Part shown: in pieces, positions 20,718 to 63,999 of the stretch
Layout of the letters: every line of letters starts with the position of its first letter
Numbering within the stretch: the first letter of the stretch is position 1
From: Corylus avellana
Lineage: Eukaryota; Streptophyta; Magnoliopsida; Fagales; Betulaceae
Assembly (NCBI RefSeq): GCF_901000735.1
Contig: NC_081548.1
Location: 12,720,354-12,784,353 of the forward strand
Length of the DNA: 64,000 nt
Reading direction: 5' to 3'
Translations under genes and position numbers: made by a program
The notes under the pieces: generated by a model
Told to the model about the DNA's origin: nothing
The model's database searches: none
Seen by the model: the letters and a program-made list of their open reading frames with translations, nothing else

Positions 20718-22684
20718 TGTAACATCCCCAGCTTGTTAAGGCCGAGTTTGCTACTTTTCTTCTTTCACAACAAAAGTTCTTGCAAAGATCTATAAGGTCT
20801 ATCAGAGTACTTGATTTTGAAAGATACGAAAAATGCATAAAACATTTTTCAAGAGATTTTATTACAAGCGAAATTAGAAAACATTAAACTTTAGTTGCGG
20901 AATATCATATCATTACAATAACTTATATGAAAAGACTTTGAAAATTAATAATTATTCCCACCCCATTCCGGCCTCCTATTCCAGCATCCTTTCTACCTGA
21001 AAACAAGAAATAAAACTGAATGAGCCCAAAGGGGGCCCAGCAAGTAACATCCACGACCATAAATGGTTTTACTCCTTGTTCTCAGTTTTGAAAATCATTT
21101 TCGCAAATAAATATAATTCTAGCCATAATAATATCTGTATGTACGGTTGCATCTCCCGTAACATATACATACTATTACATCTAGTAATAGATCATCGTTG
21201 TAAATCATCTTTATAAATCATCATCATAATGCATCAATATAAATAATCTTTGTAAATCATCTTAGCATATCTTCGTTGAAAATATAGTATCATTTTCTCA
21301 TAATAAGGCCCATGTACACTATTACCCCTGTGCACGAGGGTTGCGGGTCCTTGTGACCATGGCACTGAACTGGGGCCACAGCCATGCCCGACCGTCAATT
21401 AACTCTTTCTTGGTGCACTCAACGGTCTAGTTGATGGAATACCACCTTCTGGCATAGCCTCCTTCAGTGGTTTCGCCTCCATCCGAGTATCGGTACCGAA
21501 CTCTCATCTTATCTTATCTTGGGACCAAAAATACTCTCCTCCATACATGTGCCCTCATTTCATAAACATTTATCTCATCTCTTGTACTTTTCTTTGTACT
21601 TCTTTTGATGCATCTTAGGGCAACATGTAGGAGGGTTTATCATCATTTTTTTCTTTCTTATAATCATCATCATTTCTCAACTTTCTTTTCTTAAAATGGA
21701 AACTTTTCCAAATATAAACTTGTTGTGCTTAAAAAGCCTTTAAAGAAATATAAACTTTCTAAATAATTCTTTTAGAAATCCTTCATGCATGCAACATAAC
21801 TTCATAATACGTAAATAAAATAATTATTTACAATTTGATACAAGAATATATAAATAGCATGACATGAAGTAATTTTAGAAGGGGTAGTGAATTTACTTAC
21901 CTCTAGACTGAAGCTAAAAGTGGTATGAAGGAATCCAGTTGCTCCAATATGACTAACACCACTAGTATATTTTTTGAAACTAATTTCTAAAGTCCGCTAT
22001 CTCTTGTGTTCTTTCTTTCTTGTAGCGCTTGGTCTCGCCCTTTCTCTCTCTGTTCTCAGTAAACACTCTTAGAAAGAAGAAAGACCGAGTAAAAAGCGGA
22101 AGAAGGAAGAATATATGCAAGAGATGGGAGAGGAGATGAGTGGTGAAAATTCTGAAGGAGAAGAGCTCTATTTATAGGAGAAAATCAAACACTATTCTAC
22201 CGTCAATTTACAATTATACCCTCATTTTACTATTTCACCAACCCTATACTATTTCACCAACCCTATACTATTCTACCTTCAATTTACAATTATACCCTCA
22301 TTCTATCTTCAATTTACAATTATACCCTCATTCTATCTTCAATTTACAATTATACCCTCATTTTACTATTTCACCAACCCTATACTATTTCACCAACCCT
22401 ATACTATTCTACCTTCAATTTACAATTATACCCTCATTCTATCTTCAATTTACAATTATACCCTCATTTTACTATTTCACCAACCCTATACTATTTCACC
22501 AACCCTATACTATTTCACCAACCCTATACTATTCTACCTTCAATTTACAATTATACCCTCATTCTCTAATTACCACTCTCATAAATTTCCCAAGAATTAA
22601 GATCCTTAGCTACAATGGATATTAAAATAACATCATTATCAAAATAATCTATTTAAATAGCTTTGAAAATTCTGGGACACTACA
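20718..22684 (-). mobile_element. Solo LTR (probably gypsy type) inside the LINE
   Basis: A 1967-base element with TG...CA ends (TGTAACATCCCC ... GGGACACTACA) flanked by the 5-base duplication CATAC at 20713-20717 and 22685-22689. There is no internal gag-pol region, so it is a solo LTR left by LTR-LTR recombination. Minus orientation is suggested by a good TATA box (CCTATAAATAG on the minus strand, about 22179-22169) with a leader-like sequence after it. The ends resemble those of plant Tekay/Del chromovirus LTRs (from general knowledge, not verified). Confidence 0.85.
22200..22575. repeat. Composite minisatellite in the LTR upstream region
   Basis: Two interleaved units: a block containing ACAATTATACCCTCATT seen seven times, and a block containing TATTTCACCAACCCTATAC seen about seven times. 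Both lie just upstream of the LTR's minus-strand TATA box, in the U3 region. A long plus-strand open frame across it (22140-22625) is only a by-product of the repetition. Confidence 0.85.

Positions 22685-31706: not shown

Positions 31707-31769
<63 letters not shown>
31707..31769. repeat. TA microsatellite at the left edge of the viral locus
   Basis: About 31 uninterrupted TA units immediately before the pararetroviral sequence. A second TA tract (43496-43528) lies at the other edge. Confidence 0.95.
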
Positions 31770-31772
<3 letters not shown>

Positions 31773-32018
31773 GATGAGGTCAGTGAGTTGAGCACTAACG
31801 CTGAATATATCCGATCTCTTTGCTGCCTTGATTATACACCTTCTCTCTTGTTCTCCCCCTGAGTATAGTCTTGCTCTTCTCCTCTTTGCTTATCCCCTGT
31901 TACCCTTTCTCTGTGTCGAGAGTCTAGTTGCTTGATTGTAGTTCACCACCCCGTCAGTACAGTTTCAAGTTACCACTTCGTCACCTCAGTTTGCGAACCT
32001 GTAAGTCCCGTTGAAAGC

Positions 32019-32232
32019 CTGGGTTTGGCGTGTTAGGGCATTAAGTAGGTGCTGAGGCTAGGCCAAGGGTCTGCGTAACCTGTATGTTAGGCCAAGGGTC
32101 TGCGTGTGCTAGTTGAGTACTAGAAAGGACATGCTTAGGAAGTTTACCAGTGAGTGAGTACCTAGGAATCTAGGATGAGATCCTTTAAGACTTCACCCAG
32201 TGTGTGATTTTGAGTTTAGTTTGTGTGTCAAC
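32019..32232 (+). other. Viral leader of unit 1 with 18-base direct repeat
   Basis: The shared leader starts at CTGGGTTTGGCG and carries TAGGCCAAGGGTCTGCGT twice (32059-32076 and 32088-32105). The same leader begins at 37328 in unit 2 and differs only by one base and an 8-base duplication (AATCTAGG) near 32167. Confidence 0.75.
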
Positions 32233-35200
32233 ATGTGGAGATCTAATTCTTCTGTTAGCTCTAATTCCAGTTTGCCACCGGACGTGGTTAACTATGAAAA
32301 TATTTTGGTTGATGGTGATAATGATTTCAGTAAGTGGAACATTCCCAAGCTGGACGCTAGGGATGTCTACAATACTACTTGGTTTCAGTCTTCTTTTAAA
32401 ATTCAATATTCTGTCAAAACTGTTGAACAAACCTTTCCGGTTTCGGGTAATAATCAGACTATTACCTTGTTCAACAAGAGATTTGTTAATGATGCTCTTG
32501 CAAAAAAATACAGATTTTTGCATATTGGTTCTGTCCAAGTTGCAGTCAAGCCATTGACTCGACTCGGTATAAATGCTTATGTTTTGCTTTGTTTGCGTGA
32601 TGCTCGTTTTCTTGATTTTAAAATCAGCATTATTGGCATGATTCAGTCATCATTGTTTGGTGGTCCTGTCCACTTTGATGTTTTTCCAAATATGTCTCTG
32701 AGTTTAACCGATGTTCATATTCTGAAAGCACTGACGCTGAATATACTCACATCAGGTTATAATATGGAAGAAGGTAGCCAATCTATTGCTATCATCTACC
32801 GTATTTATTATAAATTGATGAAAACAAATCTTGATCCAAGAGCTGTGATTAAGAATACAGGCGAATCGACTCTGTTGATTCAAAGTTCTACTCAGAATGC
32901 TCATATTAAAACTCCAAAAATGATTCGATGGGCTGAGATTGAGTTGCCCAACGAATGGCTTTTGGAAGGTGTTGCAAAACCTTCTCGAGTAGTTAACGAC
33001 GCCTCTAATCTTGATTACATCCAGCAATATATGGATGGATCTGTTAAAATCAATTTTGCTGATTTGGGATATTCGAACAGAATTGAACGTCCCCTGTTGA
33101 TTAACGAACGAAGGAATTCTTTTGCGGGTTCAACAACCTCAGAAGGACTCCGTCGTAGAGATAAAGATGTCGATGAATCTCTTAACGATTCTCCTCATCT
33201 TCATCCCACAGTTAATCCTGGTTTGAAACTCAAAGGAATTTCTACCGATTCCCAAGTTTCGTCTGCTTTTTATTCCACTAAAAATCATCCTCTAACGGAT
33301 GACGATCGTGGATCTCTCTCTCCTTCTGCTTCTGATTTTGTTGCTCCTAATTTTCCTCATCAGTGTAATGTTATCACTGCTCATATCAGAGATTTCTTCT
33401 CTGTCATTGATTGGTCTGCTTTAAACAAAGATTTTTCTTCAAAAGAAAATCGTGAGTTGCGGCATGCTTACCGTGCCAAATATTCTCAAAAGGAACGAGA
33501 TCGTATCAAGGTCAAATGGGCCGAGACTATGATCGAGTCCCAAACTCACATTTTGTTTTTTGATTTTCTCCAAAAACACTTTCCTGGCGAAAATGATTTG
33601 AATGTTGTCAAAAAGAAGTTTGTCAAAGATGATAAATCTGTCATCAGAGCTTCCAATCCTCCTGTTGAAAACACTCTTCTTGATGTCAACAATATGGTTG
33701 TTAAGTGTTCCCCTGTCAAAACTCATGATAAGGACCCTATCACTAACGATAGGAGAATCATTGAGCAAAACAATTTTATTTCCGAATCCATTCATATCAT
33801 AGGTCAACAGTTAGATCGAATTGAAGAAAAACTTCCTTCTTCTTCCTCTGATTTAAAGTTTTCCTCTGTTCCCCCAAAAATTGAAAAACCACTGATTTCT
33901 CTCCCTGATTTAAAGAAATCTCCTGGTTTAAAAACCACTTCTCAGAAGAACACTGAGAAAGTGAACAAATTGCTTGCAGAACTGACTGAGTTAAAGACGA
34001 CTCAGGCCAGTACCTCTGGTCAGAATTTTGCCATGGAAAAAGCTTTTTCATCTGATTCCGACTCCTCTGCTGATTCCACTGATTCTGACATCAGGGTTCT
34101 TGAACAAAACTTTGGCAAGATTGAAATGGAGCCAAAACTCCAAAGGATCTTTGACGGATCTAGAACTTTCAATCAGACAAAGAATTTTTATCCAAAACCA
34201 ACCCCTCCTGATTTACAATTTGAGGAAAGGTTTTTGCATACTCAATTTTCTGTTTCTGCTGATAAGTTGTATGAATGGAACATTGATGGTTTGTCTGAGC
34301 AAGAACTGCTCAACAAGATGAATCACATGGCCATGGTTGCTAATGCCTACATCTCAAACCACAGTAAAAGTCAAACTGATATTGTGGATTTACTTGCTAC
34401 TGGTTTTTCTGGTACCCTTCGGAATTGGTGGGATAATTATCTCACTGAAGATAGAAGAAACCAGATCAGGAAAGCAGTAAAATGTGATGAAGAAGGTATA
34501 CCCATTTTCAATGAGGACGTTGGCATGGGTGAACCTGATGGTGTTAACACTTTGATTTATACAATTATCAAGAATTTTGTTGGAACTCCCTCCAACATTA
34601 CTTCTCGTATTTCTGATTATTTGAACAATCTTCGATGCCCTACTATGTCTGATTATAGATGGTATCAAGATGTTTTTCTTTCCCGTGTTATGATGAGGTC
34701 TGATAGCCAAAAACCTTATTGGAAAGAAAAGTTTATTGATGGATTGCCTTCATTATTTGCTCACAAAGTGAAAGATGAATTGATCAGTACTGCCACTGGT
34801 CTTATTGATTTTGAAAGATTAACCTACGGAGATTTATTCTCCACAGTGAAAAAACTTGGCATTAAGATGTGCATCGATCAAAAAATGATCCTACAGCAGC
34901 TTAAGAACGCCAAGAAAGCTAAATATGAAATGGGAAATTTCTGTGAACAATTCGGGTTGCCTCCTATTGCTCCTTCAAAGAAGCATAAGAAGAAAACCAG
35001 AAAAGAGTTCGTGAAATCTTCCCCTCCATATTACAACAGAGCCAAGATAAGAAAATTTAACAAACCTAAATTTTCTAAGTCTCCCAAACGGAGTAAAAGC
35101 TCTAAAGTTGAAAAATATTTTTCAAAAGATAAGTGTTTCAATTGCGGAGAAACAGGTCACTATGCGGACAAGTGCCCTAAACCTCCCAAAAAGATTAAAC

Positions 35201-37311
35201 AAGAGATCAATGCTTTAAACATCAAGGACGATGAAAAGCAAAAAATCTTTCGAATTTTCCAAAACAATGGTTTTTCTGATTACTCTTCTAATGATGATCT
35301 TCCATCCTCATCGGATTCTGATTCCTCTGTTTATGAAAACTGTTATAAATTTGAGAACTGTGCCGGTTCTTGCTGCAACACAAAAACTTGTTCAATGATG
35401 ACTAAATCAGAAGAACAAGAAGATTTGCTTTTAACTTTGATTTCAAAGGTTGATAATCCTGAGTTAAGAGAAGAGTATCTTAAAAAACTTAAGAAACTCA
35501 TGTTAAAAGATTTTGAAAAACCAGCTACTTCCAAAATCTCTCTTGAAGACACTTTGAAACGTTTTTCAAATCCGAAAAACAAAGTGCTTACTGTCTCAGA
35601 TTTGCAGCATGAGATTAGTAATATCAAGAAAGATATTGTGAATTTGCAAACTAACTTGCAAACTGTTAAAGCTGAGAACAAAGAATTACAACAGCAGCTC
35701 CTGCTGTTAAATCTTAACAAATGTTTTCCAGAAAGTGCTTCCAGTAACGAAGACACTAAAAAATCTGAGCATGATGATGAGGCTAAATCCACCCATAAAC
35801 CTCTCTCTGATGAGGTTAAGGTTGTCAGTATGATTAGTAAATTTGTTTCCCCCAAATGGTATTCAAAAGTTCATATCCGTATTTCTGATGAATATACTTT
35901 TGATGTTATTGCTTTAATTGATTCAGGTTCTGATTTGAATTGCATTCAAGAAGATTTTATTCCTGAAAAATATTTTGAAGCTTCCACTCAAAAATTGAAT
36001 TCTGCCAGTGGAAACAAGTTGCATATCAAATATGAACTCAGTAACGTTCATGTTTGTCAGAATGATGTTCATTTTCATACTTCTGCTGTTCTTGTTAAAA
36101 ACATGAAAGAAAAAGTGATTCTTGGCATGCCTTTTCTTTCTTTGCTCTATCCATTTTCTGTTAATGAAATTGGTGTTTCAACTGTTAAGTTTGGGTCTGA
36201 TGTTCAATTCCAATTTGCCTCTAAATTTGAAGTTGATATTAACAGGTTGATTAATAGGTTTCCAGGATTAGAGTCTGAAGAGTTCATTGCTCCCATTAGG
36301 ACTTTATCTTGTTTAAACACTCCCCCTAACGGTCGTGTTTTACCTACTGTTCATACCTACCCCAAGCACATGGCGCATATTATTATTACTGTTTTACTTT
36401 GCATCAAAATAATTTTAAAATTATTTTGCACTGTTCTAAAGATTTTCACATCTTTATTCCTGATTTCTTTCCTTTTGAAATTTTGCAGTGCCACCATGGC
36501 AGGCAAAAAAGATAAAGAGAAAGTTGTTTCCAAGGCTTTGACCATAAAGTCAGAGTCTTCCATTGCTCCTCCTTTACCATTTTCATCTGTTGCCTTAACC
36601 AACAGATTTACTCCTTTCAATCCTGGTTCCCAGGTTTCCTACTCCAGTACTCTTGCTGCCCCCTATGATCCCTTTGCGGATCCTTCCCAGAAACCTTCCA
36701 TTAAGTACGATAAGACGTCGGAATACATGGCCCTCCCCTATTCCCAAAATTTATTTTTTGTTGAGTTGAATCGGGTTTCCTCTTCCCTTTCCCCCGGAGA
36801 TATTGCCGTCTCCTATTTTCCTCCAAACTTTCATTGGATCCCTGAACATCCTTTGAAAAATTTAGCCTATTATTCTGCTATCCTGAAACAAACAGGTTCT
36901 GTTTTCTTCAAGGCTATTCCTGACAAGATTAACCCCCAGAAAACAATTTACCATAGTGTTTATTTCAAGAAAGTTATTTCGGAAAAAGATCTGCTTCCAG
37001 GTCCCTTAACGGGTTTAACATTCCTTGTAATTATTATGATTACATTGATGCTCATTTTAAATTTCTTCTTTATCAAACCTCGAAATTTGAACATTCTTGG
37101 TTTGTCAGTTTTGATAAAGACTTCTATGGTATCCTCCCCCTCTGGTTTGTTAGGTGGTGGAACCAATTTGGTCTTCTCCCTGATATTCTCCCCCTTCAAC
37201 TTGTTGATGCTTTTCAATTGTTTAAAAGCCATTTCAAGGTTGATTCATATGGAGCCAAGTTTCCCACTATGCTCCATTTTGTTAAAAAATTCAAAATTCC
37301 TTGGATTCTGA
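32233..37311 (+). pseudogene. Unit 1 ORF1: movement protein, coat protein, protease, fused to broken ORF2
   Basis: An open frame of about 1690 codons from the first ATG. Seen in order: 30K-type movement protein (about residues 15-260); a charged linker; a caulimovirid coat-protein region (about 650-930, with GTLRNWWDNYL and RCPTMSDYRWYQDVF); a CCHC knuckle CFNCGETGHYADKC at 35134-35175; and an aspartic protease with ALIDSGSDLNC (35911 on). RT and RNase H are absent. After the protease comes about 250 bases coding a hydrophobic, Leu/Ile-rich stretch, then an ORF2 start (ATG 36496, CCACCATGG context) in the same frame. ORF2 is frameshifted near 37010-37030 and cut off at 37327 by the start of unit 2. 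The ATG is preceded by an open GTG-start extension that I ignore. Confidence 0.85.
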
Positions 37312-37327
37312 GATGGCAATACCACCT

Positions 37328-37534
37328 CTGGGTTTGGCGTGTTAGGGCATTAAGTAGGTGCTGAGGGCTAGGCCAAGGGTCTGCGTAACCTGTATGTTAG
37401 GCCAAGGGTCTGCGTGTGCTAGTTGAGTACTAGAAAGGACATGCTTAGGAAGTTTACCAGTGAGTGAGTACCTAGGATGAGATCCTTTAAGACTTCACCC
37501 AGTGTGTGATTTTGAGTTTAGTTTGTGTGTCAAC
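37328..37534 (+). other. Viral leader of unit 2
   Basis: Same leader as at 32019, joined directly to the truncated ORF2 of unit 1 with no intervening host DNA. It again carries the 18-base direct repeat. Confidence 0.75.
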
Positions 37535-40500
37535 ATGTGGAGATCTAATTCTTCTGTTAGCTCTAATTCCAGTTTGCCACCGGACGTGGTTAACTATGAA
37601 AATATTTTGGTTGATGGTGATAATGATTTCAGTAAGTGGAACATTCCCAAGCTGGACGCTAGGGATGTCTACAATACTACTTGGTTTCAGTCTTCTTTTA
37701 AAATTCAATATTCTGTCAAAACTGTTGAACAAACCTTTCCGGTTTCGGGTAATAATCAGACTATTACCTTGTTCAACAAGAGATTTGTTAATGATGCTCT
37801 TGCAAAAAAATACAGATTTTTGCATATTGGTTCTGTCCAAGTTGCAGTCAAGCCATTGACTCGACTCGGTATAAATGCTTATGTTTTGCTTTGTTTGCGT
37901 GATGCTCGTTTTCTTGATTTTAAAATCAGCATTATTGGCATGATTCAGTCATCATTGTTTGGTGGTCCTGTCCACTTTGATGTTTTTCCAAATATGTCTC
38001 TGAGTTTAACCGATGTTCATATTCTGAAAGCACTGACGCTGAATATACTCACATCAGGTTATAATATGGAAGAAGGTAGCCAATCTATTGCTATCATCTA
38101 CCGTATTTATTATAAATTGATGAAAACAAATCTTGATCCAAGAGCTGTGATTAAGAATACAGGCGAATCGACTCTGTTGATTCAAAGTTCTACTCAGAAT
38201 GCTCATATTAAAACTCCAAAAATGATTCGATGGGCTGAGATTGAGTTGCCCAACGAATGGCTTTTGGAAGGTGTTGCAAAACCTTCTCGAGTAGTTAACG
38301 ACGCCTCTAATCTTGATTACATCCAGCAATATATGGATGGATCTGTTAAAATCAATTTTGCTGATTTGGGATATTCGAACAGAATTGAACGTCCCCTGTT
38401 GATTAACGAACGAAGGAATTCTTTTGCGGGTTCAACAACCTCAGAAGGACTCCGTCGTAGAGATAAAGATGTCGATGAATCTCTTAACGATTCTCCTCAT
38501 CTTCATCCCACAGTTAATCCTGGTTTGAAACTCAAAGGAATTTCTACCGATTCCCAAGTTTCGTCTGCTTTTTATTCCACTAAAAATCATCCTCTAACGG
38601 ATGACGATCGTGGATCTCTCTCTCCTTCTGCTTCTGATTTTGTTGCTCCTAATTTTCCTCATCAGTGTAATGTTATCACTGCTCATATCAGAGATTTCTT
38701 CTCTGTCATTGATTGGTCTGCTTTAAACAAAGATTTTTCTTCAAAAGAAAATCGTGAGTTGCGGCATGCTTACCGTGCCAAATATTCTCAAAAGGAACGA
38801 GATCGTATCAAGGTCAAATGGGCCGAGACTATGATCGAGTCCCAAACTCACATTTTGTTTTTTGATTTTCTCCAAAAACATTTTCCTGACGAAAATGATT
38901 TGAATGTTGTCAAAAAGAAGTTTGTCAAAGAGGATAAATCTGTCATCAGATCTTCCCATCCTCCTACTGAAAACACTCTTCTTGATGTCAACAATATGGT
39001 TGTCAAATATTCTCATTTCAAAACTCGTGATAAGGACCCTATCACTAACGATAGGAGAATCATTAAGCAAAACAATTTTATTTCCGAATCCATTAATATC
39101 ATAGGTCAACAGTTAGATCGGATTGAAGAAGAACTCCCTTCTTCTTCCTCTGATTTAAAGTTTTCCTCTGTTCTCCCAAAAATTGAAAAACCTCTGATTT
39201 CTCTCCCTGATTTGTCAAAACTTTCATACCAAAAGTCTTCTCAAACAAACCTTGAGAAAATTGACAAATTTCTTTCTGAGTTTTCTTTGAACAAAATCTT
39301 GGTAAGATTGGAATGGAACCTGACGAATCATCCAATCCTACAAAAGATTTTGAGTCTGCTCTTCCTAATGAAATTAACTATAATTGTATTAGTACTTGTT
39401 TTGTTCTAACCAAGCCCGAAGGACAAAGCAATACTAAAACATCTCCTGAAAACACTTTGGAAAAATTTTCAAAACAAAAATCCAAAGAAGTTACAGTTTC
39501 AGATCTAAAATATGAGATTCATAACATCAGGAAAGATATAGTTGATTTAAAAAGGAATCAGCATGTTCCTATCCCTATTTCTGGAAAAACCCATTTTGTC
39601 AATTTAATCAACAAAGTGGTTCCTCCCAAATGGCATTCTAACGTGCATATCATTGTTTCTCCTGATTTTACACTTGATGTTATTGCTTTAATTGATTCTG
39701 GTGCTGATTTGAATTGTATCCAAGAAGGATTAATTCCCAGCAAATATTTTGAAAAATCCACAGAACGGCTGCATTCAGCCAGTGGAGAAAAGTTAAATAT
39801 CAAGTATGAATTAAACAATGTTCATGTTTGTCAAAACAATGTTTGTTTTCATATCCCTGCTGTTTTGGTCAAAAATATGACTGATAAAGTCATTCTTGGT
39901 TTGCCCTTCATTGCTATGCTTTACCCTATAACAATTGATGACACTGGTGCATCAACTGTTAAGATGGGATTCGAAGTAAAATTTCCTTTTGCTACTAAGT
40001 CTGAAATTGATAACGGTTGTTTAAATTTGGTCTCCGCCAAACATAAACAGCTCAATTTCCTCAAACAAGAATTAAGGTATAAGAAGATTGTTGAACAGCT
40101 CTCTGACGAGCTTTTGCAATCAAAAATTTCTGCTTTCAATACCTTGATTATTGATTCTGTTTGTTCCGACCTTCCTAATACTTTTTGGCATAGGAAAAAG
40201 CATATTGTTTCTTTACCTTATGTTAAAGATTTTTCTGAAAGCAAAATTCCAACTAAAGCTAGGCCTATTCAAATGAATGCCGAAACTTTAGAATTTTGTC
40301 AAAAAGAAATTGCTGATTTGCTTGCTAAGGGTATTATTCGTAAGAGTAAGTCCCCTTGGTCTTGTGCTGCTTTCTATGTCATGAAAAATGCTGAGTTAGA
40401 ACGAGGTGCCCCAAGGTTAGTCATTAACTACAAGCCCCTCAATGACGTGTTAGAATGGATTAGGTATCCTATCCCCAATAGGAAGGATCTAGTCAGTCGT

Positions 40501-41583
40501 CTTAACGACGCTGTTGTCTTCTCTAAGTTTGATTTAAAGTCTGGGTTTTGGCAAGTTCAGATTAAGGATAGTGATAGGTACAAAACGGCCTTTACTACCC
40601 CTTTTGGTCACTATGAGTGGAATGTCATGCCTTTTGGTTTGAAAAATGCCCCGAGTGAGTTTCAGAATATCATGAACGATATTTTCAACCCATTCAGCCA
40701 TTTCACCATTGTTTATATTGATGATGTTCTTGTTTTCTCAAAGTCCATCGATGAACATTGGAAACATTTGAAATCGTTTCTAGAAACCATTCGATATAAC
40801 GGGCTTGTTGTTTCTGCCAAAAAGATCAAACTCTTCCAAGATAAAATCAGATTTCTTGGGTTTGATATTTCTAAAGGCCAGATTCGTCCTATTGACAGGG
40901 CGATTCAATTTGCGGATAAATTTCCTGATGTCATTACTGAGAAATCCCAGCTCCAACGATTTCTTGGTTCTCTGAATTATATTGCTGATTTCTACAAGGA
41001 TTTGCGAAAACACTTTAAACCTTTATTCGAAAGGTTGCAAGGCAATCCTCCTCCTTGGTCTGATGTCCACACTTCTCTTGTCAGAGAAATCAAACTCCAT
41101 GTCAAGACTCTCCCTTGTCTAGGCATCCCTTCTGATAATTCTTTCAAAATTGTTGATACTGACGCCTCTGAAATTGGCTTTGGAGGTATTCTAAAACAGG
41201 TTGTTTCATCAGAATCCAACCCAGAATTTTCTGAACAAATTGTTCGTTTCCATTCTGGATCCTGGAATTCTGCGTAGATTAATTATAGTACTATTAAGAA
41301 AAAAATATTTTCTGTTGTTTTATGCATTACTAAATTTCAATCTGATTTGCTCAATCAAAAATTTCTTTTGAGAATTGATTGTAAATCAGCCAAGTATGTT
41401 TTGAAAAAAGATGTTGAAAATATTGCATCAAAACAGATTTTTGCCAGATGGCAAGCTATTTTGAGTGTTTTTGATTTTGATATTGAATACATCAAAGGCT
41501 CAAACAATTCAATACCTGATTTTCTTACCCGTGAATTCTTGCAGTGCCACAATGGCCAGCAACAAGGGAAAAGAAAAGGTTAA
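37535..41583 (+). pseudogene. Unit 2 ORF1: movement protein, protease, RT, RNase H; no coat protein
   Basis: The frame starts at the same ATG as unit 1 and matches it exactly through the movement protein. It then shortens: the coat protein and CCHC region are missing, and the frame changes near 39280-39300. The following frame carries the protease (ALIDSGADLNC, GAT at 39694), RT (PRLVINYKPLNDVLEWIRYP, SKFDLKSGFWQVQI, GHYEWNVMPFGLKNAPSEFQ, YIDDVLVFS at 40714 on) and RNase H (VDTDASEIGFGGIL). A TAG at 41275-41277 interrupts RNase H, which then continues in frame to 41583. It overlaps the ORF2 start by about 30 bases in another frame. Two lesions make it non-functional as it stands. Confidence 0.87.
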
Positions 41584-42658
41584 CCCTGTTTTAAAGCCTC
41601 GTCCCTCCATCCCACTTGACCAGATTCCCCTTGATTTCCTTGGTGAACCTGTAACTCATACTTCATGTGTTTTTGGGAAATCCCCACTTATTGTCCAGTC
41701 AGATTCTTCTGCATTTCATGGTTATATCCCTCCTGCTTCAGATTCCCAAACGGAATCCCACTATGGTTCTCAAACGGAACCAAGTTCCAATCCTATTGTC
41801 TTATCTTTCCCATGGATTACTCTTCCATTTTCTCAATATTTGTTTTCTTCTCAGGATCTCTCTAGAACCCCTGAGCAGTTAGCTTTTAATTATTTTCCTG
41901 CTCATTTTCATTGGATTCCTGAGCATCCTCTGAAAAATTTGTCATTTTTCACTGATATACTGATCAAAACCAAATCTATCAAGTTTAGGTCTATTCCCAA
42001 GAAAGACAACCCTCTAACGGCTGTTGGGACTATTGCCTATATTGTAAAATTCATTTCTGTTGAAGAATGGGGTTCTCACCCATCTCAACTTCTTCCCTCT
42101 TCTAATTCCCTAGTTTGCTTTTCATATTATGATTATGTCAATGCCTGGTTTCGCTTTATGCTTTACCAGAACCCTGAGTCCAAACACTTCTGGTTCATTA
42201 CTTTCATTGAAGATTTCAATTGCCTGCTTCCCCCTTGGTTCAAACATTGGTGGGATTATTTTGGCCTAACAATTGATGTCCTTCCTGATCCTCTTGTTTA
42301 TGCTTTTCACCTATTCTCTTCTCATGTTCCTTGTAAAGGCTTTATTGCCCATTACAACCCTATTTTTTCTCCCATGCTTTATTTTGCCAGAGAATTTAGA
42401 ATCCCTTGGTTTCTCAAATGGAAATATGTCAGAAATCAAGAAAAGATTGAAAGACGCTGGTTTCAGTGCAAAACTTGGACAATGTCTCCAAAAATTGGTC
42501 CCATTGTTAAAAAAGTTGAGCTTATGACTCGCAGATATGATGCCATAGTGCCATATTCTGCACCTACTCTTCCTCCTGCCCCCAAATATTGTTCTAAAAA
42601 GAAGCAATGGATCCAGACCTATCTTGATTCCATTAGTCCTCTTGATAATGAAGAATAA
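41552..42658 (+). CDS. Unit 2 ORF2: conserved viral protein of unknown function
   Basis: An intact frame of 368 codons starting MASNKGKEKV. No domain recognised. It is Pro- and Ser-rich at the N-terminus and aromatic-rich in the middle (FHWIPEHPLKNLSF, FWFITFIEDFNCLLPPWFKH, WWDYFG), with a basic C-terminal third. A homologous but broken copy in unit 1 (36496 on) shares FHWIPEHPLKNLAYYSAIL, showing that the protein is conserved between the two units. The ORF1/ORF2 overlap suggests reinitiation or leaky scanning; there is no proof. Florendoviruses are known to carry such an ORF2 of unknown function. Confidence 0.75.
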   Translation: MASNKGKEKVNPVLKPRPSIPLDQIPLDFLGEPVTHTSCVFGKSPLIVQSDSSAFHGYIPPASDSQTESHYGSQTEPSSNPIVLSFPWITLPFSQYLFSSQDLSRTPEQLAFNYFPAHFHWIPEHPLKNLSFFTDILIKTKSIKFRSIPKKDNPLTAVGTIAYIVKFISVEEWGSHPSQLLPSSNSLVCFSYYDYVNAWFRFMLYQNPESKHFWFITFIEDFNCLLPPWFKHWWDYFGLTIDVLPDPLVYAFHLFSSHVPCKGFIAHYNPIFSPMLYFAREFRIPWFLKWKYVRNQEKIERRWFQCKTWTMSPKIGPIVKKVELMTRRYDAIVPYSAPTLPPAPKYCSKKKQWIQTYLDSISPLDNEE

Positions 42659-42889
42659 TTCGGGAATTCGATTGTTTGGGTCCCTAACGGTCCTCAAATT
42701 TCAGTTTATCTAGCCTCTCAAATGGCTAGTTTTCTCAGGTTTCCCAAGACTGGCTCCATGACGGCCAGAAATGTTCAGTTCAACAAAAACCAACTCATAA
42801 CAGCTAGTTTTCAAGTTTTGGTTCTCCTTGATCTTAGACGGATCACTATTCATCACTATTTGGAGTTACTGTGCAAAATCACAGTTCAC

Positions 42890-43160
42890 TTTTACTGTTC
42901 ATGTCCGGACGACAAGCGCAGGATTACTGTTCAGATGCACTGTTCACTCACTGTTCAAGTTTTGTCTGCCGACACTACAGTGCCGACAACTACTGTTTCA
43001 AATTGATGCTTTCACTGTTCAGACAGGCGCCAGACGTGCCCTTACTGTTTACTTTTACTGTTCTCTTTTGACCGCATGAACGCGGCTCATGATTGTAATT
43101 TACTGTTCTTGCTTTTGTTAAGCCTATATAACGGGCTCCCCTCCCCCATTGTAAGGCAGA
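42890..43160 (+). promoter_or_regulatory. Viral promoter: TATA box with upstream ACTGTTC cluster
   Basis: A TATA box CTATATAA lies at 43124-43131. Upstream are seven exact ACTGTTC motifs (42894, 42926, 42939, 42950, 43014, 43057, 43102) and two ACTGTTT variants. Position after ORF2 and before the leader matches the intergenic promoter of caulimovirids, whose terminally redundant RNA starts about 30 bases downstream. Confidence 0.7.
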
Positions 43161-43493
43161 GGTTTTTTGAGAGGTTCTTTGAGACACTCTATCCTCCAGC
43201 CATTTCCCCTTCAAATTCTTCTTCTTCTTCCCTGTCCCTTACTTCAGTAAGTCCTAACGCTTACTCCTGTAAAGGTTTTATCATATAATCTATAACGATT
43301 ATCTGTCTTCTTTGATTCCAACTTATCAACTGTTTTTAATTTCAGTTGTTTATTTTGATTATACAATTGTCATACCGCCACTTTGGACGGTTCTACTGCT
43401 TTGATTTACAACTGCTTATTTTCTGCATTCTATTATCACCTCCCCTCATCCCCTGCATATATATGCATACTGCGCTTCCACCCCTCATCCCTT

Positions 43494-43495
<2 letters not shown>
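43161..43495 (+). other. Viral leader downstream of the promoter
   Basis: A pyrimidine-rich untranslated sequence (CTTCTTCTTCTTCCCTG near 43220) with a possible splice donor CAGTAAGT at 43246. It ends at the TA microsatellite. It is not similar to the 31770-32018 leader segment of unit 1, so the two ends are different parts of a genome. Confidence 0.5.

Positions 43496-43528
<33 letters not shown>
43496..43528. repeat. TA microsatellite at the right edge of the viral locus
   Basis: About 16 TA units directly after the viral leader. Confidence 0.95.
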
Positions 43529-43531
<3 letters not shown>

Positions 43532-45478: not shown

Positions 45479-45825
45479 GTAGCCACCCCCTTAGCTATTT
45501 GGGGGGTGGCTGGCCACCCCTTTTGGCCATCGTGACCGAAATCATCCCTGATGGGTTTTGGGGTGGTTTCGGGCACCCCCTTTGGTCATCCTGCCACCCC
45601 CACGGCTGGATGGGGGTGGCTAGAGGAGCCAAAGGGGTAGCCGAAACCAGCCTAGTGGGTTTGGGGGTGGTTTCGGCCACCCCCTTTGGCCATGGGGGTG
45701 GCCAAGTCATCACCCCCAAGGAGCCAAAGGGGGTGGCCGAACTACCCCCAAACCCACTGGGGGTGGTTTTGGCCACCCCTTTGGCTCCTTGAGCCACCCC
45801 CAAATTGGCTAGCCACCCCAATATT
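45479..45825. repeat. GGGGGTGGCC-rich palindromic cluster
   Basis: More than a dozen GGTGGCC/GGCCACC motifs in both orientations, interleaved with AGCCAAAGGGG and its complement. This creates overlapping spurious open frames on both strands. Confidence 0.7.
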
Positions 45826-61629: not shown

Positions 61630-63999
61630 CTAAAAAAAGCTCACCTCCGGCGAGTGTCGGGCTTGGTAAAACTCATATAGATCGGGATTTAGACGTTGTA
61701 CCTCCTCTGTTTGTAGCCAACAACAATCGGATAGAGGTCTACCCTTCCATTTGACTAAGAATTTCTTGTAACCTCCCCTGTGTGTGGAAACAATTTGATC
61801 ATCAAGTATAGCTTCAATTTCCTCACGCGGTTTGATAGTAGAGGGGATGTTTATTGCAGGTGGCTCTTCCTTAGGCTCAGTAGGAGGTTCATGGTAGGCA
61901 GTGAGGTCGGCAACATTAAAAATAGGACTCAATCCTATATCAGCAGGAAGTTCCAACAAGTAGGCGTTGGGACCTAGCCTTTTTAGAATTTTGAAAGGAC
62001 CAGCTTTCCGTGACTGGAGTTTTTGAAAACTTCTACGAGGCAGACTTTCATGACTCAAACAAATGAGGACGCGATCTCCCGGCTGAAATTCCACAAAATG
62101 CCGATGGACATCAACATGTTGTTTGTATTTCTCATTTTGAAGGTTGATTCTGCGTTTGATGTCAGTGTGAAGTGACTGTATGTGGTGTAGAAAATCATCA
62201 GCAGCTGCACTACTTCGGGTTGGGCTTGGGAGAGAGATGAGATCAACAGGTGTGCGGGGTTTACTCCCTATGACGGCTTCGAAAAGGGAACAACTTGTTG
62301 TCCTATTAATAGAATTGTTGTAAGCAAATTCGGCATCCGGTAAGAGTAAGTCCCATGAAGCACTGTGATAAGCAATATGATAGCGGAGTAAATTTCCCAA
62401 ACTCCGGTTGACAACCTCAGTTTGCCCATCAGTTTGAGGATGGAAAGCACTTGAAAATTTCAGTTTGGTACCAAGCTTAGCCCATAATGTCTTCCAGAAA
62501 GAGCTTACAAATTTTATGTCCCGATCGGAGATGATAGTCTTTGGCAATCCATGTAAGCGAACCACTTCACAGAAAAATAAAGTGGCAACACGAGAAGCGT
62601 CATACGTCTTAGCACAAGCAAGGAAGTGTGCCATTTTAGAGAATCTGTCAACGACGACAAAAATGGAGTCATGGCCACGCACTGTGCGGGGGAGACCAAG
62701 GATGAAATCCATACTAAGATCTTCCTAAGGTTTGTGAGGGACTGGCAGAGGGCTATAGAGGCCAGTGTTTTGTTTATGGCTTTTGGAAAATTGGCAAACT
62801 CTACACCACTTGATGATTGTGGAGACATCTTTCTTCATCCTGGGCCAATAAAAACGATCCTCAACCAAAACAATTGTCTTATCTCGACCAAAATGGCCTG
62901 AAAGACCACCTGCGTGGAGCTCAAGTACCACATATGCTCTGATGGAGGTATGTGGTAGGCAGAGACGTGTGTTAAAAAAAAGGAACCCATCAGGAAGGTG
63001 ATACTCCTTGAATGCAGCAGAGTTGCCTTGAGAAAGGGCCCGATAAATATGGCCAAAATCAGGATCATCTTGATAACAATGTTTTAGTTCTTCAAAACCT
63101 GTTAAAGTTACAGTCAGATTAGATAGTAGATAATTCCTTCTGCTAAGGGCATCCGCAACTCGATTTTCCACACCCGACTTATGTTTAAGAACAAAAGAGA
63201 ATTGTTGCAAAAAATCAACCCATCGTGCATGTCGGGCATTTAAGTGTTTTTGTGAGTTGATATGGCGAAGGGAATCATGATCCGTAAAAAGGACGAACTC
63301 ATTGTGAATAAGATAATGCCTCCAATACTTGAGGGACCGAATGATGGAATAAAATTCGAGATCATAGGTGGAGTAACGTCGTCGCGTCTCGTTGAGTTTT
63401 TTGCTAAAAAAAGCAATAGGAAGGCCATCTTGGCTAAGCACTCCACCAATGCCCACATGAGAAGCATCACATGCCACCTCGAATGGCCTCTCAAAATTTG
63501 GCTGTTGTAGAACCGGAGCTGCAGTGAGGAGTTTTTTAATCTGCTGGAATGCTCGTTGTGTTGCCGGTGTCCAGTTGAAGGGTCCATTCTTCGTGCACTC
63601 TGTAATGGGAGCCATTATAGAGCTGAAACCCTTGATGAATCTTCGGTAGAAAGACGCAAGGCCATGGAAACTGCGGGTCTCATGGACAGTAGTTGGAGTA
63701 GGCCATTCAACTATGGCTTGAACTTTTGTGGGATCAACTGAAATTCCCTGTGTAGATACAACAAAACCCAAAAATATGACTGATGATTGAGCAAAAGAAC
63801 ACTTTTTAAGATGAATGAAAAAACTTTCAAAGCGAAGCACTTGTAGAACTTGTCGTAAATGTTCTACATGTTTGGAAGTGTTTTTGCTAAAAATAAGGAT
63901 ATCGTCAAAGTAGACGACCAAAAACTTCTCGATGAATGGCCGAAGAATTTGGTTCATAACGCGCATAAAGGTGCTAGGCGCGTTAGTGAGACCAAAAGG
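61630..63999 (-). pseudogene. Ty3/gypsy chromovirus pol, 3' part (RT, RNase H, integrase, chromodomain)
   Basis: Polyprotein entering from the right edge in the RT (PFGLTNAPSTF, then VVYFDDILIFS). RNase H (VACDASHVGIGGVL, FVLFTDHDSL) and a zinc-binding region (LHAGGLSGHFGRDKT ... CRVCQ) follow. A TAG at 62725-62727 stands where the family has Trp, just before the integrase core. The core (MDFILGLPRT, ISDRDIKFVSSFW, FHPQTDGQTEVVNRSL) keeps its D, D and E. The C-terminus is a chromodomain (EAILDDQIVSTHRGGYKKFL, VKWKGRPLSDCCW). Apart from the one stop the frame is open for 2.3 kb, so the copy is young. Confidence 0.9.

Follow-up and report, generated by a model that had tools for sequence, protein, structure and literature searches.

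Bipartite florendoviruses, with compound insertions, have been described from grapevine, rice and sorghum (Geering et al., 2014, PMC4241990, in the portion drawn on here). According to the same portion of that article no living caulimovirid has a divided genome, and multipartite genomes are not known among Ortervirales in the section of a review that we cite (PMC10377300); evidence for such an organization can therefore come only from fossils such as the hazelnut copies described below. For the non-autonomous pararetrovirus pairs ePVCVL/ePVCVL2 of grasses, concerted evolution has been proposed (PLoS Pathog 2017, PMC5491270, in the excerpt used). Here we analyse a 64,000-nucleotide stretch of the Corylus avellana genome (NCBI RefSeq assembly GCF_901000735.1, contig NC_081548.1, positions 12,720,354 to 12,784,353 of the forward strand), hereafter the window, in which two endogenous pararetrovirus units lie head to tail on the + strand between (TA)n tracts. 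The locus is very probably a compound insertion that holds both components of a bipartite hazelnut pararetrovirus, of the florendovirus type and either extinct or unsampled. As judged from sequence comparison, this reading is carried by recurrent complementary layouts, separate descent of the proteases, a movement protein that is not sorted by component, and the frequency with which the two components lie close together.

An earlier note on the window had read the first unit, here component B, as carrying a movement protein (MP), a coat protein (CP) with a CCHC knuckle and a protease (PR), and as lacking reverse transcriptase (RT). Open reading frames (ORFs) and Pfam matches confirm this layout:

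31707-31769, no strand: (TA)n microsatellite at the left edge (sequence).
31810-32232, + strand: 5' leader of unit 1 (component B), its tRNA-Met primer site lost at the left edge (leader alignment, 11 rows).
32233-37311, + strand: single ORF of unit 1, ordered MP-CP-PR-(no RT)-ORF2-like tail (stop-to-stop 32179-37311, 1710 aa).
32455-32829, + strand: movement protein domain (PF01107, 1.8e-17).
34615-34911, + strand: caulimovirus coat protein domain (PF22909, 1.3e-08).
35131-35181, + strand: CCHC knuckle (PF00098, 3.5e-06).
35869-36138, + strand: aspartic protease of B type, a retropepsin (PF00077, 1.1e-06; PR trees).
36250-36495, + strand: RT-less join, in which a linker and a hydrophobic stretch replace RT and most of RNase H (recurrent alignment).
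36496-37328, + strand: ORF2-homologous part of component B, cut off by the joint (sequence comparison).
37328-37332, + strand: B-A joint, with an overlap of ~2 nt (sequence comparison).

The insertion had been taken to start at 31770, next to the (TA)n tract, but viral homology begins only at ~31810, about 22 nt past the start of the tRNA-Met site as placed in other copies, and 31770-31809 is unassigned filler. Unit 1 spans 31810-37328 without the 3' end of ORF2 and without the intergenic region, and a Pfam search on pieces of the unit found no RT domain.

The second unit, component A, had been described as holding MP, PR, RT and RNase H and as skipping the coat protein. This description likewise stands on ORFs and Pfam, with an RNase H match (1.2e-06) just under the curated cut-off and no coat domain in a Pfam search on pieces of the unit:

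37329-37534, + strand: partial leader of unit 2 (sequence comparison).
37535-39409, + strand: MP frame of unit 2 (component A), with a B-type MP (ORFs, MP tree).
39213-39595, + strand: coat-less join of component A (join alignment).
39280-41583, + strand: PR-RT-RNase H frame of component A (ORF listing).
39664-39903, + strand: retropepsin of unit 2 (RVP; Pfam, 9.9e-07).
40402-40869, + strand: RVT_1 of unit 2 (Pfam, 6.9e-37).
41552-42658, + strand: ORF2 of component A, 368 aa (ORF listing).
42659-43495, + strand: intergenic region, TATA-like at 43125-43131, ending at the right edge of the insertion with TGG, the first bases of the tRNA-Met site.
43496-43529, no strand: (TA)n microsatellite at the right edge (sequence).

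Unit 2 covers 37329-43495, and its leader piece misses the first ~245 nt. It is broken, with MP and PR-RT in different frames and an in-frame stop in RNase H at 41275-41277. The deletion junction that the earlier note placed near 39290 is the coat-less join, but at this site the window also has an extra deletion of ~107 nt relative to most A copies compared, as well as the change of frame. Both units do possess ORF2, as had been claimed, but the part in unit 1 stops at 37328. The 368-aa ORF2 of component A matches no Pfam family at E<=1 and by rule of thumb weighs ~42 kDa, slightly below the 45-58 kDa published for florendoviruses. Across the locus, the florendovirus domain set MP-CP-AP-RT-RH1 (AP, aspartic protease) is present in order by Pfam, but divided over two units; the putative assignment to florendoviruses rests on layout, ORF2 and primer site.

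Both layouts recur across the genome, in searches that scored the best 40 of 155-342 candidates per query and reach close relatives only. With the protease-to-ORF2 part of unit 1 as query there were 41 matches, of which 29, not counting the window, align along almost the whole query at 89-93% identity. When the RT-less join was aligned (six matches set aside as partial), all 20 other full-length joins had the same structure, L019_9380 leaving viral sequence in the last bases. No stop interrupts the join in 17 of 21 rows (window included), and the other four carry stops; in two of the stop-free rows (L021, L022) the ORF2 frame shifts just past its start. Up to the start of ORF2, join lengths differ by multiples of three, except in L015_648 and L019_9380. 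The coat query added 15 more divergent copies at 86-88% identity, and the eight of these that were sampled all have the RT-less join, which with 22 others was found in 30 of the best 40 coat matches (30 checked at the join). None of the best 40 coat matches has an RT match 0.5-5 kb downstream.

Component B comprises two lineages, ~75-80% alike in PR: B1, to which unit 1 belongs, and B2. In B1, ORF1 and ORF2 form one fused frame, and in B2 the protease frame stops before ORF2 in seven of eight sampled copies; L015_319 groups with the more divergent B lineage in the protease tree. The B1 join at 36373-36486 encodes a conserved, strongly hydrophobic stretch of ~37 residues between protease and ORF2; it could be a membrane segment, or it could result from the U-rich, intron-like character of the nucleotide sequence. 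A homologue search with the coat protein returned 255 proteins, with relatives in plants and metagenomes but none bearing an informative virus name.

The coat-less join of component A was found in 32 of the best 40 RT matches, 26 through an upstream match to the A join and six among ten sampled copies (36 checked in all). Among these 40, the sole match with a coat match within 6 kb upstream is the tandem in the window. The parts missing from the two units had been called exactly complementary; this is so in that RT and coat are reciprocally absent, but the seven A copies mapped retain 62-154 nt from the beginning of the coat region and 50-132 nt from its end. The small extra deletion at the window's coat join is also present in at least one other copy, at C3:17819717. 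Two small deletions at the end of MP (at ~72-180 and ~92-200 of window 39000-39700) recur, each common to several A copies, and are possibly replicating recombinant variants.

Their recurrence marks both layouts as real components. The earlier note had proposed that the same two layouts at many independent loci would support two components, and that most copies carrying coat and RT in one continuous ORF, with the junctions unique to this locus, would speak against them. The genome shows the former pattern, with 30 and 32 incomplete layouts among the best 40 matches each.

The proteases descend separately by component. Those of the two window units are ~74-76% identical in DNA, in agreement with the diverged protease that the earlier note gave to each. 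In both protease trees (8 A and 23 B rows; 8 A and 31 B rows) all A rows stand apart from all B rows with 100/100 support, which is the separation of RT-linked from coat-linked units that a proposed tree check was to look for. The window pair has a ratio of nonsynonymous to synonymous substitution (dN/dS) of ~0.25 over 140 codons, which suggests constraint after the split.

The movement protein does not follow component. The two window MPs are identical over 1,409 nt (32170-33578 = 37472-38880), ~6% different over the next 333 nt (to 33911) and unrelated beyond, with 98.8% identity overall; the absence of any difference across these 1,409 nt suggests that the event was recent. In an MP tree of 20 A and 12 B rows, in which A labels were set from A-join places and from which copies of unknown linkage (such as L028, L029 and L023_1088), short pieces, one L042 duplicate, L060 and L061 were omitted, A and B copies are intermixed. 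Well-supported branches force at least six label changes, and a single A clade is rejected (approximately unbiased test, p = 5.5e-37). Seven of the 20 A copies have an A-type MP, ~81% identical to that of the window, and 13 have a B-type MP. The switch from B-type to A-type sequence lies near MP position 1500 in L042, L043 and L046 (the last ~80 nt being B-like again in L042 and L043), at ~1599 with a gap in copies such as L009, L050, L051 and L053, at ~1619 with a gap in L024 and L054, and past 1731 in the window and L041. These differing breakpoints, together with the tree, suggest several separate exchanges, while some of the gaps could be later deletions instead. An A-type MP was found in none of the 12 B copies in the tree (B2 MPs were not looked at). 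The intergenic region of window A is ~83-92% identical to B-linked ones; set beside a bipartite criterion of >90% identity in the intergenic region and >87% nucleotide identity in MP, the window MPs reach 98.8%, the intergenic regions straddle the first value and the A-type MPs of seven A copies stay at ~81%.

We consider it evenly balanced whether the unique halves of A and B are separate lineages between which a coding module of leader and MP passed repeatedly from B to A, the shared end resembling the common region of multipartite DNA viruses; within that reading, four kinds of crossover join are preserved among the A copies of the hazelnut genome. As regards the MP identity alone, a tentative alternative is that host gene conversion or tandem duplication after insertion, and not viral recombination, made the two MPs alike. 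An event of that kind would fit the limits of the identical tract (32170 to 33578), both of which fall within the homologous region, and the ~6% difference past it. It would also fit the A and B MPs being mutually closest in two of five comparable compound loci, the window and C3:20.80M, and those at C2:26.71M sharing 98.3% identity where they overlap (464 nt), a level similar to that of the best match elsewhere (97.7-97.9%). It fits poorly with the 13 A copies that have a B-type MP: seven of them lie >360 kb from any B/coat match listed, or on a contig with none, so that exchange inside a compound locus after insertion explains them poorly. Breakpoints that vary between A copies speak against it as well. 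From these comparisons, the exchange of MP sequence probably happened in the virus.

The two components are often found together. Of the best 40 B copies, 14, spread over 11 places, have an A copy no more than 10 kb away, in varying orientation, compared to a mean of 0.104 and a maximum of 3 in 1000 shuffles of A positions within chromosomes. Five B copies are clustered within ~35 kb at C5:10227332-10261772, and the same cluster includes an A copy. The loci C2:26.71M and C5:19.79M each have a B copy with an A copy downstream in head-to-tail arrangement, at equal distances (4732 and 4733); between the same points in the window the distance is ~3250, and ~1.5 kb is therefore missing at the window joint. 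What is missing is the end of B after 37328 (~0.4 kb), followed by the intergenic region and the initial part of the leader, the order in which they lie at C5:19.79M. The joint is non-homologous and is spanned by one of the best 40 scored matches, the window itself, and we therefore rejected it as a standard component junction; given its uniqueness and the missing sequence, it arose either by direct illegitimate joining or from a dimer through loss of ~1.5 kb. Capture of both components in tandem, as the earlier note had it, is thus supported for the bipartite pair and its co-location, but not for a clean junction.

TGGTATCAGAGC, which we take to be the tRNA-Met primer motif, separates the intergenic region from the leader in several other copies and is lost at the left edge of the window insertion. 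At other loci, 11 of 27 viral ends have a tract of (TA)6 or longer nearby, versus 3 of 154 tiles of the window, and both ends of the window insertion also adjoin (TA)n. A donor-like GTAAGT is present in the leader at 32001-32006 and in 10 of 11 aligned leaders. An acceptor-like TTGCAG lies at 36483-36488 in B and at 41539-41544 in A, with its CAG seven bases before the ORF2 start codon; the acceptor AG is kept in 19 of 21 B rows and an acceptor-like CAG in 3 of 3 A copies. By the splice consensus, these motifs are presumably a donor and an acceptor, and ORF2 may accordingly be made from a spliced RNA; leaky scanning has been proposed for ORF2 by Geering et al. (PMC4241990, in the portion cited).

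In the bipartite virus that we envisage, component B would supply the coat protein and component A the RT-RNase H, both carrying leader, MP, protease, ORF2 and intergenic region. Both pregenomic RNAs would be made in one cell and copied by the RT of A inside the coat of B. Because the two share the type of tRNA-Met site as well as leader and MP, the enzyme of A could copy both and switch between them; such switching, or recombination of nuclear minichromosomes, would exchange the leader-MP end, in which the two are homologous. Products that were linear or concatemeric, having been opened at the tRNA-primer site, would then be captured at (TA)n breaks. At the locus in the window, unit 2 bears a B-type leader-MP end, and B and A were joined with the loss of ~1.5 kb.

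Several observations weigh against this reading. Four of the ten sampled RT copies were rearranged or uninformative, in some matches to the A join only the part adjoining PR matched, and the join was checked in 30 of the best 40 coat matches and 36 of the best 40 RT matches. Since scoring the best 40 of 155-342 candidates reaches close relatives, a distant monopartite relative could be missed. The A unit of the window and some B copies are broken, the MPs at C6:11.52M and C2:37.24M (two of the five compound loci) are clearly not nearest relatives, and an intergenic tree with two A rows, from which unlabelled and short rows had been removed, does not reject separate descent (p = 0.09). A and B might also be two distinct defective derivatives, each reliant on a complete helper virus, instead of a self-sufficient pair, a dependence left open by Geering et al., 2014 (PMC4241990, in the text used). 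That both components kept the overlapping genes MP, PR and ORF2, a redundancy that strictly divided roles would not call for, favours such dependence. We nevertheless judge it unlikely: no complete copy is present among the best 40 coat and 40 RT matches (30 and 32 of which proved incomplete), the parts missing from A and B are complementary, and the protease differences between them are mostly synonymous. That both layouts arose by independent deletions from a monopartite provirus at the window locus after insertion can practically be dismissed: unit 2 does have local damage (the small extra deletion with its frame break, plus the stop), but that deletion is common to at least one other copy, as noted for C3:17819717, and the joins recur at dozens of loci on many chromosomes and in two B lineages, which rules out local decay.

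Three further features of the window lie outside the insertion. At 61630-62724 on the - strand an ORF resembles, on visual reading, a Ty3-type integrase that ends in a chromodomain-like part; at 45611-45802 there is an inverted repeat, possibly a miniature inverted-repeat transposable element, with two 80-nt arms that are 32 nt apart and 80% complementary; and at 22140-22625 ORFs occupy all three + frames over apparent tandem repeats.

Compared to known systems, the two-component virus proposed for hazelnut most resembles VvinBV, VvinDV, OsatBV and SbicV (PMC4241990, as far as the portion used describes them). With these it shares a component A without coat protein; a component B that has MP-CP-AP, lacks RT together with N-terminal RNase H, and bears an ORF2-homologous tail; and high MP identity in the window pair, compound A+B insertions, a bias to (TA)n and a genome start at tRNA-Met. 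It differs from the bipartite florendoviruses of that portion in its Corylus host, in the mixture of A- and B-type MPs among A copies with several breakpoints, in a divergent B lineage whose ORF2 frame is mostly separate, and in the locus-specific truncated B-A joint. Endogenous viral elements of a bipartite florendovirus in sugar beet have the same organization in another eudicot, a likeness drawn from mention in a review (PMC10377300, in the section cited). With ePVCVL/ePVCVL2 the hazelnut copies share complementary pairs kept alike by repeated recombination; in the grass pairs the homogenized part is the noncoding intergenic region and its neighbours, whereas in hazelnut the clear signal is in the coding MP (PMC5491270, in the excerpt used). 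We found no open-access literature on a florendovirus, caulimovirid or pararetrovirus of Corylus or hazelnut, and Corylus, hazel, Betula, Carpinus and Fagales are all absent from the main text of a survey of recent insertions. The bipartite organization is thus already known, and what appears to be new within the literature searched is the host, together with a coding module that was transferred repeatedly and left intermediates that are still preserved. Hazelnut would apparently add a plant family to this organization, the hosts named in the parts of the literature cited being grapevine, rice, sorghum and beet. Its set of copies is large enough to test the bipartite organization, and it illustrates how two segments can stay compatible, their unique genes diverging while the shared end is exchanged.

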